DNA from: Palaeococcus pacificus DY20341
GTDB lineage: Archaea > Methanobacteriota_B > Thermococci > Thermococcales > Thermococcaceae
Reading direction: 5' to 3'
DNA: 64,000 nucleotides
NCBI RefSeq assembly: GCF_000725425.1
Contig: NZ_CP006019.1
Coordinates: 992,001-1,056,000, forward strand
Notes under the pieces: generated by a model
Databases searched by the model: none
Told to the model about the DNA's origin: nothing
The model's input: the letters and a program-made list of their open reading frames with translations, nothing else
Part shown: positions 3,991-25,574 of the stretch, in pieces
Numbering within the stretch: the first letter of the stretch is position 1
How the letters are laid out: every line of letters starts with the position of its first letter
Program-made: the position numbers and the translations under genes

Positions 3991-5607
3991 TCAAACAAGT
4001 CCAGCAGCTTTAACAAACTCAGCTACATTTTCAACTTGGCTCTTTGCCCTTGTCTCCATGATGCTCTTCTTTCCGCCTTCAATTGGAACTTTCTTAAAGA
4101 GCTTCTCGTGGGTCTCAACGACATCCTCTGGTGGCTTTGTAAGTAAGCTCACTATGATAATTATCAAGAGCGTTATGAAGAAGTTCACGAAGAACACTGG
4201 CACATCTTGGAACCAGCCGCCGATTGTTCCAAATATTCCTGGTGCATCGGAATGGAATGCCCATCCATATATCTTAGCCTCTAAGAGGACTTCTGAGAGC
4301 AGACCATAAGCCATTCCAACGATTCCTGCTTCCTTTGTAACGCGCTTCCACCAGAGGCTGAGTGTTAAAATTGGCCCAAATCCAACGGCTAATCCTCCCC
4401 AAGCTGTTGCTACCATTTGATAGACTATTTTACTTCCACGCATAGCCCAATACATAGCTAAGATGGCTATCGCTAGGACTACAATCCTACCAATGTTGAC
4501 CATTTGCTTCTTTCCGAGCTCTTTTCCGAGCACTTTGTGGTATAGGTCTCTTGAAACTGCTGAAGAAGCTACAAGCAATTGTGAATCTGCCGTACTCATG
4601 ATGGCTGAGATTATACCCGCTATGATAAAACCTGCTATCCAAGAGGGCATTAACTCAAGAGCCATTGCGGGGATTATTCTCTCTGGGTCGCTTACTTGTA
4701 GTATTCCTCCCTTAACCATTGCAAATCCTAAAAATCCTGCAAAGAAAGCTCCCCATAGGACAATGATGGTCCAAATGCCGCTTATGAATATACCGGGCCT
4801 CCTAAGCTTTCTTGGGTCTTCAACGCTCATATACCTCGTGACTATGTGGGGCTGACCGAGGTAGCCAACTATCCATGATGCATAACCTATAGCAAATATT
4901 AAAGCTGCTACCCCAGCTGCGCCTCCAAATGGATGAATGTGATTGGGATCAACTTGACTCATTATCTCTGTGGCTTTTTCAAGTCCTCCAACCTTCGATA
5001 ATGCTAAGAAGGGCACGATTATCAATGTTAATAACATGAATAATGCTTGAACGACATCAGTCCAAACAACGGCGAAGAATCCTCCTGTAATAACGTAAGC
5101 TGTCAAGATTATCACTGTTATTAATATTGCAGTATTAACATTTATTCCAAATGCTTCGGCGAGTGCTTTACCACCAGCTGCGAACTGAGCGGCAACATAA
5201 GCTGTCATGAAAACAAGGATAATTAAAGCACCTATCACTCTTATTAGCTTAGTGTCATCTTTTAACCTTGCTTCGATATAGTCTGGAACCGTAATTGCTC
5301 TAAATTTACCTGCATAGATTCTAAGCCTCGGTCCGATTAAAACATAATCTGCTAAGGTTCCAAAGAGGCATCCAATCGCTGCCCAAAACGCTCCAAGACC
5401 TGCTTTAAACGCCGCACCGGGATAACCAAGCATTAACCAACCGCTGAAATCACTTGCTTTATCGCTAAGAGAAGCAGCCAATATGTGAACCTTTCTTCCA
5501 CCGACGAAATACTGGTCTTCAGTCTTAGTGTATTTATTAGCCCACCAACCGATGTAAGCTAAAATACCCAGATATACCAAAAATCCAAGCAAAACACCGG
5601 TGTTCAT
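3991..5607 (-). CDS. putP: Sodium/proline symporter (SSS family)
   Basis: A 538-residue polytopic membrane protein of the sodium:solute symporter family with about 13 hydrophobic segments. PutP-like signatures are visible: SDKASDFSGWLMLGYPG near residue 48, GQPHIVTRYM near residue 252, and a Na+-site-like SAIMSTADSQLLVASSAVSRDL near residue 335. It sits directly downstream of its small accessory gene (4-nt overlap) and upstream of the proline dehydrogenase genes. It therefore most likely imports proline with Na+ for catabolism. Another amino acid cannot be excluded from sequence alone. Confidence 0.87.
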   Translation of the reverse strand: MNTGVLLGFLVYLGILAYIGWWANKYTKTEDQYFVGGRKVHILAASLSDKASDFSGWLMLGYPGAAFKAGLGAFWAAIGCLFGTLADYVLIGPRLRIYAGKFRAITVPDYIEARLKDDTKLIRVIGALIILVFMTAYVAAQFAAGGKALAEAFGINVNTAILITVIILTAYVITGGFFAVVWTDVVQALFMLLTLIIVPFLALSKVGGLEKATEIMSQVDPNHIHPFGGAAGVAALIFAIGYASWIVGYLGQPHIVTRYMSVEDPRKLRRPGIFISGIWTIIVLWGAFFAGFLGFAMVKGGILQVSDPERIIPAMALELMPSWIAGFIIAGIISAIMSTADSQLLVASSAVSRDLYHKVLGKELGKKQMVNIGRIVVLAIAILAMYWAMRGSKIVYQMVATAWGGLAVGFGPILTLSLWWKRVTKEAGIVGMAYGLLSEVLLEAKIYGWAFHSDAPGIFGTIGGWFQDVPVFFVNFFITLLIIIIVSLLTKPPEDVVETHEKLFKKVPIEGGKKSIMETRAKSQVENVAEFVKAAGLV

Positions 5608-11933: not shown

Positions 11934-13710
11934 GTTCCAATAAGACTTTAGAAGTATTGAAATGAGCTGGCAGAACGTGCTTTAACAGCAACGGAGCTTA
12001 AGTTCCAATAAGACTTTAGAAGTATTGAAATGAGCTGGCAGAACGTGCTTTAACAGCAACGGAGCTTAAGTTCCAATAAGACTTTAGAAGTATTGAAATC
12101 AGTGCCCTTTCTCGTCATCGAGGCGACAGGGTGGAGGTTCCAATAAGACTTTAGAAGTATTGAAATTTGAAGGACCTCCAACCTCGAGCTTTTCGACAGC
12201 AGTGTTCCAATAAGACTTTAGAAGTATTGAAATCATTTTTGTCGCCAAGGCCACAGCGGCGGCACTGAAAGTTCCAATAAGACTTTAGAAGTATTGAAAT
12301 GACTTTACGAAGCACAACAAGGATATTCTACCGATTTTCAGGTTCCAATAAGACTTTAGAAGTATTGAAATATGAGATGCTTAGTTTTGATGATATTAGC
12401 CTGGTCTGTTCCAATAAGACTTTAGAAGTATTGAAATTGACCCTGAGCGGCCTGGCGTATATGGAGCTTTCGGAGTTCCAATAAGACTTTAGAAGTATTG
12501 AAATTAGAGAAAGTTAGGGAGGAGTTGGGAGAGGCTAATGGTTCCAATAAGACTTTAGAAGTATTGAAATTCAATTCCTGCAGGGGGGAGCATTACAATT
12601 TATCTTTAGTTCCAATAAGACTTTAGAAGTATTGAAATATGGTGCTTAATTTTGTATGAAAAAAACGCTTTTTAGGTTCCAATAAGACTTTAGAAGTATT
12701 GAAATATTGCGTTATTGTCTTTAGTGTAAACCACTGAGCCGGTTCCAATAAGACTTTAGAAGTATTGAAATTAAGGGGTGTAATAGTCTTCAACTCATTG
12801 TAAATTGTGTTCCAATAAGACTTTAGAAGTATTGAAATTGCAAGTATCGAAAGACGGGGATTTATTGGCAATATGTTCCAATAAGACTTTAGAAGTATTG
12901 AAATCGGTCTTGAGGTTATCTCGGTTTTGGAGGAGCTTGAGTTCCAATAAGACTTTAGAAGTATTGAAATTTGACTACCGCTTTGGTAGTAGATTTCACG
13001 GTAACCGCGTTCCAATAAGACTTTAGAAGTATTGAAATTTGTGTTGCTAAAGGCATAATAAAGGGTTACTGAAGTTCCAATAAGACTTTAGAAGTATTGA
13101 AATAACTTTGGGAAAACTGGAAAACAAGGGCTTCTTTGGGGTTCCAATAAGACTTTAGAAGTATTGAAATAGTGATAAGGTGATATACATGGAAGAATTT
13201 AAGGATGTTCCAATAAGACTTTAGAAGTATTGAAATTTCCTTGGAAGATCAATTGAGTTGTTAGTAAGTGTAAGTTCCAATAAGACTTTAGAAGTATTGA
13301 AATTTCCTTGGAAGATCAATTGAGTTGTTAGTAAGTGTAAGTTCCAATAAGACTTTAGAAGTATTGAAATTTTATGTGCACCCTACTTATCCTGCAAAGA
13401 AAATAGACTTGTTCCAATAAGACTTTAGAAGTATTGAAAGTATTAATTAACAGCTGTTTGGCTGTTTCGTAGTCAAGTTTCAATAAGACTTTAGAAGTAT
13501 TGAAAGGTGAGAAATGGAGTGGAGGCAGTTAAATCCCTCTTCACAGTGTTTCAATAAGACTTTAGAAGTATTGAAAGAGTGTATTTGAGCTTGTATCGTT
13601 CAGTGGAGCAACTGTTCCAATAAGACTTTAGAAGAATTGAAAGACTTGGGGCTTGGTGGTGGGTTTCAGGGAAAAGAAAAGTTCCAATAAGACTCTAAGA
13701 GAATTGAAAG
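11934..13710 (+). CRISPR. CRISPR array, 27 repeats and 26 spacers
   Basis: A 30-nt repeat beginning GTTCCAATAAG and ending ATTGAAAT recurs at 11934, 12002, 12070, 12137, 12204, 12271, 12342, 12408, 12475, 12541, 12609, 12676, 12742, 12809, 12875, 12941, 13009, 13074, 13141, 13207, 13274, 13341, 13411, 13477, 13548, 13614 and 13681. Spacers are 35-41 nt. Copies 1-22 are identical. Copies 23-27 end in G and carry changes, as expected for the leader-distal end. Spacer 1 equals spacer 2, and spacer 20 equals spacer 21, giving 24 distinct spacers. No cas gene lies in the window, so the array depends on Cas proteins encoded elsewhere. Confidence 0.98.
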
Positions 13711-20690: not shown

Positions 20691-20948
20691 ATGGCAGATG
20701 TCGAAGTCAAAAAGGAAGAATACCTTGTTATAGGAAAAACTGATGCCGTTGAGATAAGTGTTGACACATTTTTATGCAAGGGTTGCGGTATTTGTTTGGA
20801 ACTCTGCCCAAGAACAGTTTTTGAATGGAGCCAAGAGCTTAGCGAAAAAGGTGTCCACTATCCTGTGGCTGTTAAAGCTGATAAGTGTGTTAAATGTAAG
20901 CTGTGCGAGCTTTTATGCCCTGACTTTGCAATAGCGGTTAAATGGTGA
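20691..20948 (+). CDS. korD: 2-oxoacid:ferredoxin oxidoreductase delta subunit (two [4Fe-4S])
   Basis: 85 residues. Two CxxCxxCxxxCP motifs, FLCKGCGICLELCP and CVKCKLCELLCP, bind two [4Fe-4S] clusters and pass electrons to ferredoxin. It is the first gene of a seven-gene operon and the only delta subunit, so it may serve both alpha-beta-gamma sets or only the first. The ATG at 20691 follows GGTGATGATT. The gene order matches the 2-ketoglutarate ferredoxin oxidoreductase cluster of Pyrococcus. Confidence 0.9.
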   Translation: MADVEVKKEEYLVIGKTDAVEISVDTFLCKGCGICLELCPRTVFEWSQELSEKGVHYPVAVKADKCVKCKLCELLCPDFAIAVKW

Positions 20949-20953
20949 TTTTA

Positions 20954-22177
20954 ATGATAATACGTGGTGACGAGCCCGAACAGATTGAGCTCTTAAAAAA
21001 ACTATATCCCAAGGGCAACTACTTCATGCAGGGCGATGAAGCCATAGCCTATGGCGCTCTTTTTGCTGGCTGTAGGTTCTATGCAGGTTATCCAATAACT
21101 CCCGCAAGCGAAATAGCAGAGACTATGGCGAGGGAGCTCCCAAAGGTGAAAGGTTACTACATCCAGATGGAGGATGAGATAGCGAGCATTGCTGCTGTTG
21201 TTGGTGCTTCATGGACAGGGTTAAAGAGTATGACCGCCACTTCCGGCCCCGGCTTCAGCTTAATGCAGGAAAATTTAGGCCTCGCAATAATGACTGAGAC
21301 TCCTCTAGTTTTGGTGGATGTCCAGAGGAGCGGTCCATCAACAGGTCAGGCCACAAAAGGGGCCCAAGGAGATTTCTTCCAAGCAAGATGGGGAACTCAT
21401 GGGGATCACCCAATAATAGCAATCTCACCTACGAGCGTTGAAGATAGCTTTTGGGAAACTATTAGGGCATTTAACTTGAGTGAAAAGTTTAGAATTCCTG
21501 TTGTCCTTTTGGCCGATGGGGTGATAGGACATACGAGGGAACAGATTAGACTTCCTGACCCAGAGGACGTCGAAATACTCTATAGAAAGCTTCCAAAGAA
21601 TGAGGAAGAAGCTAAGTATCCTTTTGGTGATGTCCACGGCGATCTAATCCCACCGATGCCACTGTTTGGGAAGGGCTACTTCACACACGTCACAGGCTCA
21701 ACACACAAAGAGACTGGCCTTAGAGATGTTTACACTCCTGAGGTTCACAACCGCTTAGTGAGAAGGCTGCACGATAAGATAGAGAAGCATAGGGCTGAGA
21801 TAGAAAAGTGGGAGGAGTATTACACTGAGGATGCTGAGATTTTAGTGGTGAGCTGGGGAGTAAGTGCAAGACCTTCGCTTGGTGCCGTTCTCAAAGCGAG
21901 AGAGGAAGGCATTAATGTTGGTCTCTTCGTTCCAAAGACTATGCACCCGTTCCCAGAGAAGCGCATAAAAGAGCTTGGAAAGCAGGTTAGGGCCATTTTA
22001 GTGCCTGAGATGAACCTCGGTCAGATCATATTAGAAATTCAAAGATTTGTCAACGATGACGTTGTGCTAAAGGGTGTTAACAAGATTGGCGGTGTTCCAT
22101 TAACGGTGCAAGAAATACTAAAAGAGATAAAGGAATTGAGCTCAGCCGAGCGTTCTCGTCACCGTTCGGCGGATTAG
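20954..22177 (+). CDS. korA: 2-oxoglutarate-type ferredoxin oxidoreductase alpha subunit, set 1
   Basis: 407 residues. The pyrimidine-domain segment FMQGDEAIAYGALFAGCRFYAGYPITPASEIAE carries the YPITP motif of KorA/VorA. TSGPGFSLMQENLGLAIMTETPLVLVDVQRSGPSTGQ follows. The start ATG is preceded by GGTGATTTTA. The C-terminal tail SSAERSRHRSAD is absent from the paralogous alpha protein of set 2 and is encoded by the strand opposite a C/D box RNA gene. Confidence 0.9.
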   Translation: MIIRGDEPEQIELLKKLYPKGNYFMQGDEAIAYGALFAGCRFYAGYPITPASEIAETMARELPKVKGYYIQMEDEIASIAAVVGASWTGLKSMTATSGPGFSLMQENLGLAIMTETPLVLVDVQRSGPSTGQATKGAQGDFFQARWGTHGDHPIIAISPTSVEDSFWETIRAFNLSEKFRIPVVLLADGVIGHTREQIRLPDPEDVEILYRKLPKNEEEAKYPFGDVHGDLIPPMPLFGKGYFTHVTGSTHKETGLRDVYTPEVHNRLVRRLHDKIEKHRAEIEKWEEYYTEDAEILVVSWGVSARPSLGAVLKAREEGINVGLFVPKTMHPFPEKRIKELGKQVRAILVPEMNLGQIILEIQRFVNDDVVLKGVNKIGGVPLTVQEILKEIKELSSAERSRHRSAD

Positions 22178-22193
22178 ATATTCATCATAGCTC
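22138..22193 (-). ncRNA. C/D box sRNA (16S rRNA 2'-O-methylation guide), antisense to korA 3' end
   Basis: Read on the minus strand: C box ATGATGA (22182-22188), a 12-nt guide ATATCTAATCCG, D' box CCGA (22166-22169), a 3-nt spacer, C' box GTGACGA (22156-22162), a 10-nt guide GAACGCTCGG, and D box CTGA (22142-22145). Flanking GAGCT and AGCTC form the terminal stem. The D' guide complements CGGATTAGATA, the conserved 790 loop of 16S rRNA. The fifth-base rule points to U788 (E. coli numbering). The D guide's target is not recognised. A TATA box stands at the right distance upstream. Confidence 0.88.
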
Positions 22194-22214
22194 ATGTGAG
22201 GTTTAGTCGTTGGG

Positions 22215-22222
22215 TATTTAAA
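22215..22222 (-). promoter_or_regulatory. TATA box of the C/D box sRNA
   Basis: TTTAAATA on the minus strand, centred about 25-26 nt upstream of the predicted RNA 5' end at 22193. It lies in the spacer between korA and korB. Confidence 0.65.
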
Positions 22223-22232
22223 GGTGATGCGT

Positions 22233-23069
22233 ATGGAAAAAATTCACACCAAGTATGATATGGCCAAATATTTGAGAAAAGAAGCCCTTCCCACGGCTCT
22301 CTGTCCGGGTTGTGGTGGTGGGACTGTCTTAAACGCTTTTGCCAATGCAGTTGACCAGCTCAAAATTGATCCCAAGGACTTGGTAATGGTGAGCGGAATC
22401 GGCTGTTCAGCATGGATTGCCTCGCCATATTTCTTAGCTGATACTTTGCATACAACTCATGGAAGAGCAATAGCCTTTGCAACGGGCGTTAAAGTTGGTC
22501 TTCCCGATAAGAAGGTAGTGGTTATTAGTGGTGATGGTGATTTAGCGGGCATTGGAGGAAACCACCTCATCCATGCAGCAAGGAGGAACGTAGACATAAC
22601 CGTAATTTTGGTGAACAACTTTATCTACGGTATGACCGGGGGTCAGGTGGGTCCGACTACACCCTTTGGTGCCAACACGACGACAAGTCCATACGGCAAC
22701 ATAGAGCACCCAATCAATATAAGCGAGACAATAGCTGCTGCTGGAGCTTCTTATGTCGCGAGGTGGACGACTTTTCATGTGTATCAGCTCATAGAGAGCA
22801 TAAAGAAGGCTCTCCAGGTTAAAGGCTTCTCCCTTGTTGAGGTCGTCTCTCAGTGCCCCGTCCAGTTCGGAAGGAGGAATAGAATGAAAACTCCCGCTGA
22901 GATGCTTAGATGGTTCCAAAAGAACAGCGTACCGATAAGTAAGGCTAAAAATATGAGTCCAGAAGAGCTTGAAGGCAAAATAGTCATTGGCGAAATTATC
23001 AGCAGGGAGAGGCCAGAGTTCACAGAAGAGCTCAACAAAATCATCGAAAAGCTGGGGGGAGGAGAATGA
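22233..23069 (+). CDS. korB: 2-oxoglutarate-type ferredoxin oxidoreductase beta subunit, set 1
   Basis: 278 residues. LCPGCGGGTVLNAF near residue 20 and a later Cys (GIGCSAW) are beta-subunit cluster ligands. GDGDLAGIGGNHLIHAARRNVDITVILVNN is the thiamine-diphosphate/Mg motif. The ATG at 22233 follows GGTGATGCGT. A 63-nt stretch near the 3' end is identical to the set 2 beta gene. The stop overlaps the gamma start. Confidence 0.9.
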   Translation: MEKIHTKYDMAKYLRKEALPTALCPGCGGGTVLNAFANAVDQLKIDPKDLVMVSGIGCSAWIASPYFLADTLHTTHGRAIAFATGVKVGLPDKKVVVISGDGDLAGIGGNHLIHAARRNVDITVILVNNFIYGMTGGQVGPTTPFGANTTTSPYGNIEHPINISETIAAAGASYVARWTTFHVYQLIESIKKALQVKGFSLVEVVSQCPVQFGRRNRMKTPAEMLRWFQKNSVPISKAKNMSPEELEGKIVIGEIISRERPEFTEELNKIIEKLGGGE

Positions 23070-23581
23070 CCCAAATTAGGATTGCCGGTTTTGGCGGCCA
23101 AGGAGTTATACTAGCTGGTGTAATTTTGGGTGAAGCGGCCGCTATTGAGGGTCTAAACGTTATCCAAACGCAGGACTATGGCTCCCAAAGCAGAGGAGGG
23201 CACTCTGTAGCAGATGTCATCATTTCAAAGGAGCCTATTTACGATGTTATAGTCACGAAAGCCGATGTCCTTCTGGCAATGTCGCAAATTGGTTATAGGG
23301 GCACAAAAGAGAGTTTGAAAGATGAAGGTCTTTTGATAATCGACACGGACTTAGTGGAGCCGGACAGGGAGTTTATAGGTGCTCCTTTCACAAGGCTGGC
23401 TGAGGAAGAAGTTGGTTTGGCTTTGACAGTCAATATGGTGGCTTTAGGCTATTTAGTGGCTAAGACAGGGGTTGTGAAAAAAGAAAGTGTTGAAGAGGCT
23501 ATAAAGAGAAGAGTCCCAAAGGGGACAGAAGAAGTTAACCTAAAAGCATTTAGAATTGGATATGAGGAGGGAGCAAAATGA
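23066..23581 (+). CDS. 2-oxoglutarate-type ferredoxin oxidoreductase gamma subunit, set 1
   Basis: 171 residues. The opening IRIAGFGGQGVILAGVILGEAAA is the gamma-domain signature, followed by TQDYGSQSRGGHSVADVIIS. The gamma domain completes the CoA/oxoacid site in heterotetrameric enzymes. It overlaps the preceding beta gene by 4 nt and the following alpha gene by 4 nt, so translation is coupled throughout. Confidence 0.9.
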   Translation: MTQIRIAGFGGQGVILAGVILGEAAAIEGLNVIQTQDYGSQSRGGHSVADVIISKEPIYDVIVTKADVLLAMSQIGYRGTKESLKDEGLLIIDTDLVEPDREFIGAPFTRLAEEEVGLALTVNMVALGYLVAKTGVVKKESVEEAIKRRVPKGTEEVNLKAFRIGYEEGAK

Positions 23582-24723
23582 AGTATCCATTTCCAGTTGG
23601 AGAGAGCGATTTTATACAAGGGGATGAGGCCATAGCGAGGGCAGCCATTTTGGCAGGATGCAGGTTTTACGCTGGATATCCAATTACCCCTGCAAGCGAG
23701 ATATTTGAGGCAATGGCTCTCTACATGCCTCTCGTAGACGGTGTTTCAATACAAATAGAGGATGAAATTGGAAGTTTGGCAGCTGTGATTGGCGCTTCAT
23801 GGGCAGGCGCTAAAGCAATGACTGCCACTTCTGGTCCAGGCTTTAGCTTGATGATGGAAAACCTTGGCTATGCAATTATGACCGAGACCCCATTGGTTTT
23901 GGTCGATGTCCAGAGGAGTGGCCCATCAACAGGACAGCCCACTTTAGCAGCTCAGGGCGATGTTATGCAGGCTATATGGGGCACTCACGGAGATCACAGT
24001 ATAATTGTTTTAACCCCTGCAACGGTTCAGGAAGCCTTTGATATGACAATTAGGGCATTTAACTTGGCTGAAAAGTATAGGACTCCCGTTGTTTTGCTAA
24101 CGGACGGTGAAGTTGGACACATGAGGGAGCGCGTCAACATACCAGATCCAGATGAGATTGAGCTCGTTTATAGGAAGCTTCCAAGGAATGAGGATGAAGC
24201 TAAATATCCTTTCAGAGACTGGGACAGCGACGGAATTCCACCAATGCCGGTCTTCGGCAAAGGCTATCACGCATATGTGACGGGGCTAACGCACGATGAG
24301 AGAGGAAGGCCCAAGACTGTTGAGGCGGAGATTCATGAGAAGCTCATTAACCGTATCATAGGCAAAATTGAGAAAAATAAGGATGATATCATCGAATATG
24401 AAACGTTCGGCCTTGAAGATGCTGAAGTAGCGATAGTGAGCTATGGAATTGTTGCCCGCTCTGCAATAAGGGCCGTTAAAATCCTCCGCAAAGAGGGGAT
24501 TAAAGCTGGACTGTTAAAGCTCAACGTTGTTTGGCCTTTTGACTTTGAGATGATTGAGGATATAGCGGAGCAGGTGGGCAAGATATACGTGCCAGAAATG
24601 AACCTTGGACAGGTCTACCACCTTGTCAAAGAAGGAGCAAACGGTAAAGCAGAGGTTGAGCTAATTCCAAAGATAGGTGGGGAGATACACACACCCGATG
24701 ATATAGTTAGAGCGGTGAGGTGA
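23578..24723 (+). CDS. 2-oxoacid:ferredoxin oxidoreductase alpha subunit, set 2
   Basis: 381 residues, close in sequence to the set 1 alpha (YPITPASEIFEAMA, TSGPGFSLMMENLGYAIMTETPLVLVDVQRSGPSTGQPT). It ends normally at IGGEIHTPDDIVRAVR, without the extra tail of set 1. In Pyrococcus the corresponding second set encodes an oxidoreductase of uncertain substrate. The TGA overlaps the following gene's upstream codons. Confidence 0.88.
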   Translation: MKYPFPVGESDFIQGDEAIARAAILAGCRFYAGYPITPASEIFEAMALYMPLVDGVSIQIEDEIGSLAAVIGASWAGAKAMTATSGPGFSLMMENLGYAIMTETPLVLVDVQRSGPSTGQPTLAAQGDVMQAIWGTHGDHSIIVLTPATVQEAFDMTIRAFNLAEKYRTPVVLLTDGEVGHMRERVNIPDPDEIELVYRKLPRNEDEAKYPFRDWDSDGIPPMPVFGKGYHAYVTGLTHDERGRPKTVEAEIHEKLINRIIGKIEKNKDDIIEYETFGLEDAEVAIVSYGIVARSAIRAVKILRKEGIKAGLLKLNVVWPFDFEMIEDIAEQVGKIYVPEMNLGQVYHLVKEGANGKAEVELIPKIGGEIHTPDDIVRAVR

Positions 24724-24728
24724 TGCTC

Positions 24729-25574
24729 ATGTATCTTAAGTCAAGCTATGATATTAGGGACAAATACTTAAGAAAGGATATGCTTCCCACAATATTTTGC
24801 CCGGGATGTGGTATAGGAGCGGTTCTCCAATACACCCTTAGGGCCATAGATGAATTGGGATGGAGCAAAGATGAAGTAGTGTGGGTGAGCGGAATCGGCT
24901 GCTCCGCGAGAGTTCCAGGCTTTGTTGATTTCGACGGATTGCACACGACTCACGGAAGGGCCTTAGCATTTGCCACGGGAATTAAGATGGCTAACCCTGA
25001 TTTAAAGGTAATCGCGTTTATGGGCGATGGTGATGCTGCTGCGATAGGTGGAAACCACTTTATCCACGCAATAAGGCGTAACTTAGATGTTACGGTTATC
25101 TTAATAAACAACTTTACCTATGGAATGACCGGTGGACAGGTTGCTCCTACCGCTCTTAAGGGCTTAAAAGGAACCACCGCCCCATACGGCAACTTTGAGA
25201 ATCCCTTTGACATTGCAAACCTTGCAGTCGCGGCCGGAGCCAACTATGTGGCAAGATGGAGCGTGTTTAACTACCTGCAAGGAATAAACAGCATAAAGAA
25301 GGCTTTGCAAAAGAAGGGCTTCTCATTGGTGGAGTTTCTAAGTCAGTGCCCGATAAGCTTTGGAAGAAGGAATAAGATGAAGACAGGTGCAGAGCTAATA
25401 AGGTGGTATCAAAAGATTACAGTGCCGATAAGTAAGGCTAAAAATATGAGTCCAGAAGAGCTTGAAGGCAAAATAGTCATTGGCGAATTCGTGGACAGGG
25501 ACAGGCCAAGCTTAGATGAGGAGTATGAGCGTTATAAAAGGAGAGCGAAGGAGATAATGGGGTGGAAGGAATGA
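24729..25574 (+). CDS. 2-oxoacid:ferredoxin oxidoreductase beta subunit, set 2
   Basis: 281 residues. FCPGCGIGAVL and GIGCSARV bind the cluster. GDGDAAAIGGNHFIHAIRRNLDVTVILINN binds TPP. The ATG at 24729 is favoured by GAGGTGATGCTC upstream. Nucleotides 25425-25487 are identical to 22932-22994 in the set 1 beta gene, although the rest of the genes differ. Overlaps the gamma start by 4 nt. Confidence 0.88.
   Translation: MYLKSSYDIRDKYLRKDMLPTIFCPGCGIGAVLQYTLRAIDELGWSKDEVVWVSGIGCSARVPGFVDFDGLHTTHGRALAFATGIKMANPDLKVIAFMGDGDAAAIGGNHFIHAIRRNLDVTVILINNFTYGMTGGQVAPTALKGLKGTTAPYGNFENPFDIANLAVAAGANYVARWSVFNYLQGINSIKKALQKKGFSLVEFLSQCPISFGRRNKMKTGAELIRWYQKITVPISKAKNMSPEELEGKIVIGEFVDRDRPSLDEEYERYKRRAKEIMGWKE

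Follow-up and report, generated by a model that had tools for sequence, protein, structure and literature searches.

A gene for a small C/D box RNA (sRNA) was found on the minus strand at the junction of korA and korB of Palaeococcus pacificus, within a window (the whole stretch of DNA that was analysed, 64 kb) corresponding to positions 992001-1056000 of the single 1,859,370-bp chromosome. Taken together, the features and comparisons described below make it very probable that this is a C/D sRNA gene which probably has its own promoter, which guides modification of 16S rRNA at U788 through its D′ guide, which had a single origin at the korA/korB junction, and which provided korA with a new C-terminal tail. 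The sRNA is real, apparently not described before, and an ordinary member of the archaeal C/D guide kind.

Structure of the sRNA gene

The elements of the sRNA gene and of its surroundings (coordinates in the window; "carriers" are the genomes that contain the sRNA and g4 is a second genus of Thermococcaceae) are as follows:

20942-22177, plus strand: korA, alpha subunit of 2-oxoacid:ferredoxin oxidoreductase (NF006412, 592 bits)
22138-22193, minus strand: C/D box sRNA gene, about 56 nt (covariance model match of 89.8 bits; conserved in 13 other genomes)
22138-22141, minus strand: 3′ arm of the terminal stem, GCUC, read from the sequence
22139-22177, plus strand: C-terminal tail of korA, SSAERSRHRSAD, and stop codon; antisense to the sRNA, present only in carriers, synonymous sites frozen
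22142-22145, minus strand: box D, CUGA, invariant
22146-22155, minus strand: D guide, GAACGCUCGG, with a single substitution across 14 genomes
22156-22162, minus strand: box C′, GUGACGA; among carriers the first base alone varies, being G or A
22163-22165, minus strand: D′-C′ spacer, ACG, 3 nt, read from the sequence
22166-22169, minus strand: box D′, CCGA, invariant
22170-22181, minus strand: D′ guide, AUAUCUAAUCCG, forming 11 Watson-Crick pairs to the 790 loop of 16S rRNA; only its first base varies
22182-22188, minus strand: box C, AUGAUGA, which fits RUGAUGA; TGATGA is invariant among relatives
22190-22193, minus strand: 5′ arm of the terminal stem, GAGC, pairing with 22138-22141
22215-22222, minus strand: TATA-like box, TTTAAATA, a putative promoter; the same box in 12 of 12 g4 loci, TTTTTAA in genome G001
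22224-23069, plus strand: korB; best match to a 2-oxoglutarate ferredoxin oxidoreductase beta subunit, under the cut-off of that model

All the boxes, guides and the spacer that a first-pass annotation had assigned to a C/D box sRNA are located at the expected places on the minus strand between 22138 and 22193. The terminal stem described there is also present, but it consists of 4 bp (GAGC/GCUC) and not of the 5 bp GAGCT/AGCTC, because the fifth pair would use the last base of box D. In genome G001 a stem pair is changed from A-U to G-C, which is a compensatory change, few sequences varying in the stem.

The sRNA shows the characters of archaeal C/D box sRNAs, namely C and D boxes near the ends with a short stem, internal C′ and D′ boxes with a short linker, a guide of about 9-12 nt (that of D′) complementary to rRNA, and conservation as an RNA rather than as a protein, as indicated by the synonymous sites and by the conserved block beyond the korA stop codon. 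The D′ box CCGA is a variant of the canonical CUGA, and the same form is present in other Thermococcus C/D sRNAs. The complete pattern C-guide-D′-spacer-C′-guide-D occurred once in the 64-kb window versus no occurrence in 100 dinucleotide shuffles. The predicted fold of the sRNA (z -1.5) was not informative, as is expected for C/D RNAs. By analogy with the known family, the sRNA would fold into a K-turn (C/D) and a K-loop (C′/D′) and would assemble with L7Ae, Nop5 and fibrillarin.

The search of Rfam at gathering thresholds gave no match at the locus. In the E-value mode of Infernal, many archaeal sR families and snoPyro_CD aligned to exactly the same strand and extent, all of them below their gathering scores; the best score was that of sR9 (27.0 bits versus a gathering score of 36 bits, E 0.0011), and sR14 and sR1 gave E values of 0.00017 and 0.00038. 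The alignment with sR families proposed in the first-pass annotation was obtained end to end with archaeal models, and since no family reached its gathering score, the sRNA is not a catalogued family and its guide pair is absent from the library. It resembles the C/D sRNAs of Pyrococcus and Thermococcus (Rfam sR, snoPyro_CD RF00095) in its length, box order, short D′-C′ linker, two guides and stem, and differs from these families in its guides.

An exact-pattern scan of 85,000 genomes returned, besides one match in Enterovibrio that was taken as chance, only metagenome assemblies of Thermococcales/Thermococci. The D′-C′ linker GCCGAACGGTGACGA is identical to that of a C/D sRNA at loci L095 and L108 of other Thermococcaceae, which is nevertheless a separate gene in which both guides differ. 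The guide CGGATCAACCGG of that C/D sRNA is apparently complementary to the 5′ end of 16S rRNA.

Distribution and conservation

The decisive evidence for the sRNA comes from the comparison of genomes. In a search of 94 Thermococcaceae genomes, performed at the DNA level and with a covariance model based on the first homologues found, both methods recovered the 56-nt RNA in 14 genomes, comprising two of the three in Palaeococcus, the genus of the window, and 12 of the 13 in g4. It was found in none of the 78 genomes of the other four genera (g2, g3, g5 and g6), including g3, the largest genus of the set, with 0 of 61. The carriers include Palaeococcus pacificus and presumably some Thermococcus species, and in all of them the sRNA sits at the korA/korB junction. 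The covariance model scores were 84-90 bits in the 14 genomes and then fell to 30 bits or less; those of the weaker matches in other genera that were read have C/D architecture and unrelated guides.

The identity to the window was 0.89-0.95 over the RNA versus 0.27-0.70 upstream and 0.23-0.57 downstream (30-base flanks). Both guides, whose conservation in neighbouring species had been suggested as a check, are retained in relatives, that of D′ being fixed except for the first base and that of D having one substitution.

The sole g4 genome without the sRNA is G079, in which a close korA is missing too (best E 2.6e-107); this reflects either loss of the kor operon or an assembly gap.

The D′ guide and 16S rRNA

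The part TATCTAATCCG of the D′ guide forms 11 Watson-Crick pairs with the 790 loop of 16S rRNA, a match that was reached by none of 300 shuffled guides. Its partner is CGGATTAGATA, which in P. pacificus 16S rRNA runs from C722 onward. The 790 loop is functional, universally conserved and close to the P site. The position of modification is given by the fifth-base rule, which is established C/D biology: the fifth base upstream of D′ faces U726 of P. pacificus 16S rRNA, that is, U788 of Escherichia coli, the numbering having been checked against an E. coli 16S gene. The target named in the first-pass annotation was thus recovered, both in the 11-base match and in the residue. The sequence of the D′ guide predicts 2′-O-methylation of 16S U788, and the sRNP would place the methyl group on this residue (P. 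pacificus U726) through the D′ guide.

A search with a more relaxed pattern, for further sRNAs directed at this 16S site, revealed no other 790-loop guide in the family. A lineage-specific guide and a predicted Um788 would be added to the 790 loop; since the guide is present in two genera of Thermococcaceae and absent in four, the U788 site can be tested by comparison of species.

The D guide

The scan for targets of the D guide covered 8.1 kb of rRNA and tRNA, and no target holding across species was found among them. The D guide is treated here as an orphan guide; such guides are known in archaeal C/D sRNAs (PMC7994747). Part of the conservation is left unexplained because the D guide is nearly invariant without a cross-species target.

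Two candidate targets were considered. An 8-bp pairing of the D guide, including two G-U pairs, was found in eight of eight carrier genomes examined at a 23S site next to U2552, which we take to be the A-loop. That the D guide directs methylation at this site has a small chance of being correct, helices 90-93 of 23S rRNA being a known methylation hotspot (PMC7994747); however, the two D-guide positions adjoining box D are unpaired, the A-loop would be conserved regardless, and chance alone should yield about one 8-bp match of this kind in the 8.1 kb of rRNA and tRNA. Methylation in the variable arm of tRNA-Ser(CGA) is considered quite unlikely. In P. pacificus all ten D-guide positions pair with this tRNA (8 Watson-Crick and 2 G-U pairs), but the pairing was equalled by 23 of 300 shuffled guides, two mismatches occur in 7 of 12 carrier relatives although their D guide shows little or no change, and the pairing persists in a genome without the sRNA.

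Two further matches in the 23S region were rejected. The sequence CTGGGCGTTT, just beyond the end of the 23S model (L029, about 4525-4545, reverse complement; also L030), forms 10 bp with the D guide, 3 of them G-U, in both rRNA copies of P. pacificus, and this trailer match was not retained in the g4 carriers examined. The match near position 1314 of 23S rRNA was retained only in G000 and G078.

Antisense arrangement and the kor message

Lying opposite korA, the sRNA is perfectly complementary to its mRNA, a complementarity that the first-pass annotation had pointed out. Of 17 antisense snoRNA candidates described in Thermococcus kodakarensis, 16 extend over the 3′ end of a gene (PMC4247193), and archaeal C/D sRNAs in general show such overlap with gene ends (PMC7994747). 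Since 3′-overlapping antisense candidates are so frequent in T. kodakarensis, the complementarity to the korA mRNA is accounted for by a common arrangement of genes, and nothing was found in support of the suggested link between carbon metabolism and rRNA methylation. The sRNA resembles the T. kodakarensis antisense snoRNAs in lying over the 3′ end of the complementary gene; unlike them, it allows the link between an RNA and a new protein tail to be read by comparison at korA.

It is very unlikely that the RNA, though real, serves chiefly to regulate korA/korB as a cis-antisense RNA, or that its RNP methylates the korA mRNA. Both guides pair with this mRNA, the fifth-base position of the D′ guide being U22174, which directly precedes the UAG stop codon, and such a target would explain the conservation of the D guide without one in rRNA or tRNA. 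However, an RNA is always complementary to the strand opposite its gene, and nothing can be read from this, the same arrangement being common in T. kodakarensis (PMC4247193), whereas the 16S match does not depend on korA and would be most improbable by chance. Very unlikely, too, is an sRNP with two jobs, combining methylation of 16S U788 with an action on the korA mRNA, for example a 2′-O-methyl group before the stop codon. If true, the output of the 2-oxoglutarate oxidoreductase would be coupled to ribosome modification, and the nearly invariant D guide would be kept for the korA mRNA.

The C-terminal tail of korA

The order of genes at the locus is korD, korA, korB, korC, encoding a 2-oxoacid (2-oxoglutarate type):ferredoxin oxidoreductase, and then a second alpha/beta pair. 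All korA ends that were read from g2, g3, g5 and g6 finish in EIRGV or EIRGVA, with small variations, and there the korA stop abuts or overlaps the korB start. The tail of the SSAERSRHRSAD type was seen only together with the sRNA and is the RNA gene read backwards. Among codons for the same residue in korA, 44-50% are identical in the gene body versus 91-100% in the last 12 codons, and conservation of the block does not end at the stop codon but includes box C and the stem. What few changes the tail shows over the RNA affect the first base of C′, the D′-C′ spacer and one base of the D guide.

The earlier proposal that this tail is coded by the strand opposite the RNA agrees with its occurrence only where the RNA is and with its frozen synonymous sites. 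Loss of the boxes in relatives that keep the tail, which had been named as the contrary outcome, is the opposite of what was seen: the boxes and guides are retained, and the tail is confined to genomes with the RNA. That there is no RNA, and that the block merely reflects a constrained KorA C-terminus with boxes arising by chance, is hardly credible: most of the block is coding and its residues are nearly invariant among carriers, but synonymous sites are frozen only over the sRNA and conservation extends past the stop through box C and the stem, which refutes a reading by protein constraint alone, while the tail is missing in four other genera, and one would have to put both the boxes and the 11-base 16S match down to coincidence.

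With a C/D sRNA at the junction, the RNA gene would have parted korA and korB, which abut elsewhere, and would have given korA a new 12-residue tail read from the complementary strand. This would be a clear example of a metabolic enzyme whose C-terminus was rewritten by an RNA gene at a gene junction, the prior state being visible in sister genera.

The promoter-like element

The TATA box reported upstream of the sRNA in the first pass is present as a promoter-like box at conserved spacing: the putative 5′ end of the RNA lies 22 nt downstream of it, and the distance from the end of the box to the TGATGA core is 25-27 nt in 14 of 14 carriers. In T. kodakarensis the median distance from TATA box to start site is 23 bp (PMC4247193), by which the 5′ end of the sRNA falls at the stem. 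The start region of korB contains GGTGATG beside the reverse complement of the TATA-like box, and the box overlaps the A-rich stretch of this ribosome-binding region; for this reason its conservation is not purely promoter evidence. Transcription of the sRNA probably starts from a TATA promoter of its own at 22215-22222.

Origin of the junction

In the trees of korA and korB a single branch separates the carriers from the other genomes (support 94/91 and 96/90), from which it follows that the association of the sRNA with kor arose once, with the kor genes. The protein tree of rpoB places Palaeococcus nearer to the non-carrier genera, weakly (87/86); it was preferred to the rpoB nucleotide tree, which was set aside for composition bias. 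The sRNA gene probably originated or was inserted a single time between korA and korB, in a lineage today represented by Palaeococcus and one other genus of Thermococcaceae, and its distribution would reflect either descent with losses or transfer. The trees are unrooted, and gain of the sRNA is favoured over loss because four genera share the compact korA/korB junction.

Other observations in the window

The second korA/korB-like pair (23578-25574) directly follows; its alpha gene lacks a tail and runs directly up to the next gene, like korA in other genera. At 13550-13710 there are a few degenerate CRISPR-type repeats, two of which reach Rfam CRISPR-DR6, forming a very short array that looks like a remnant.
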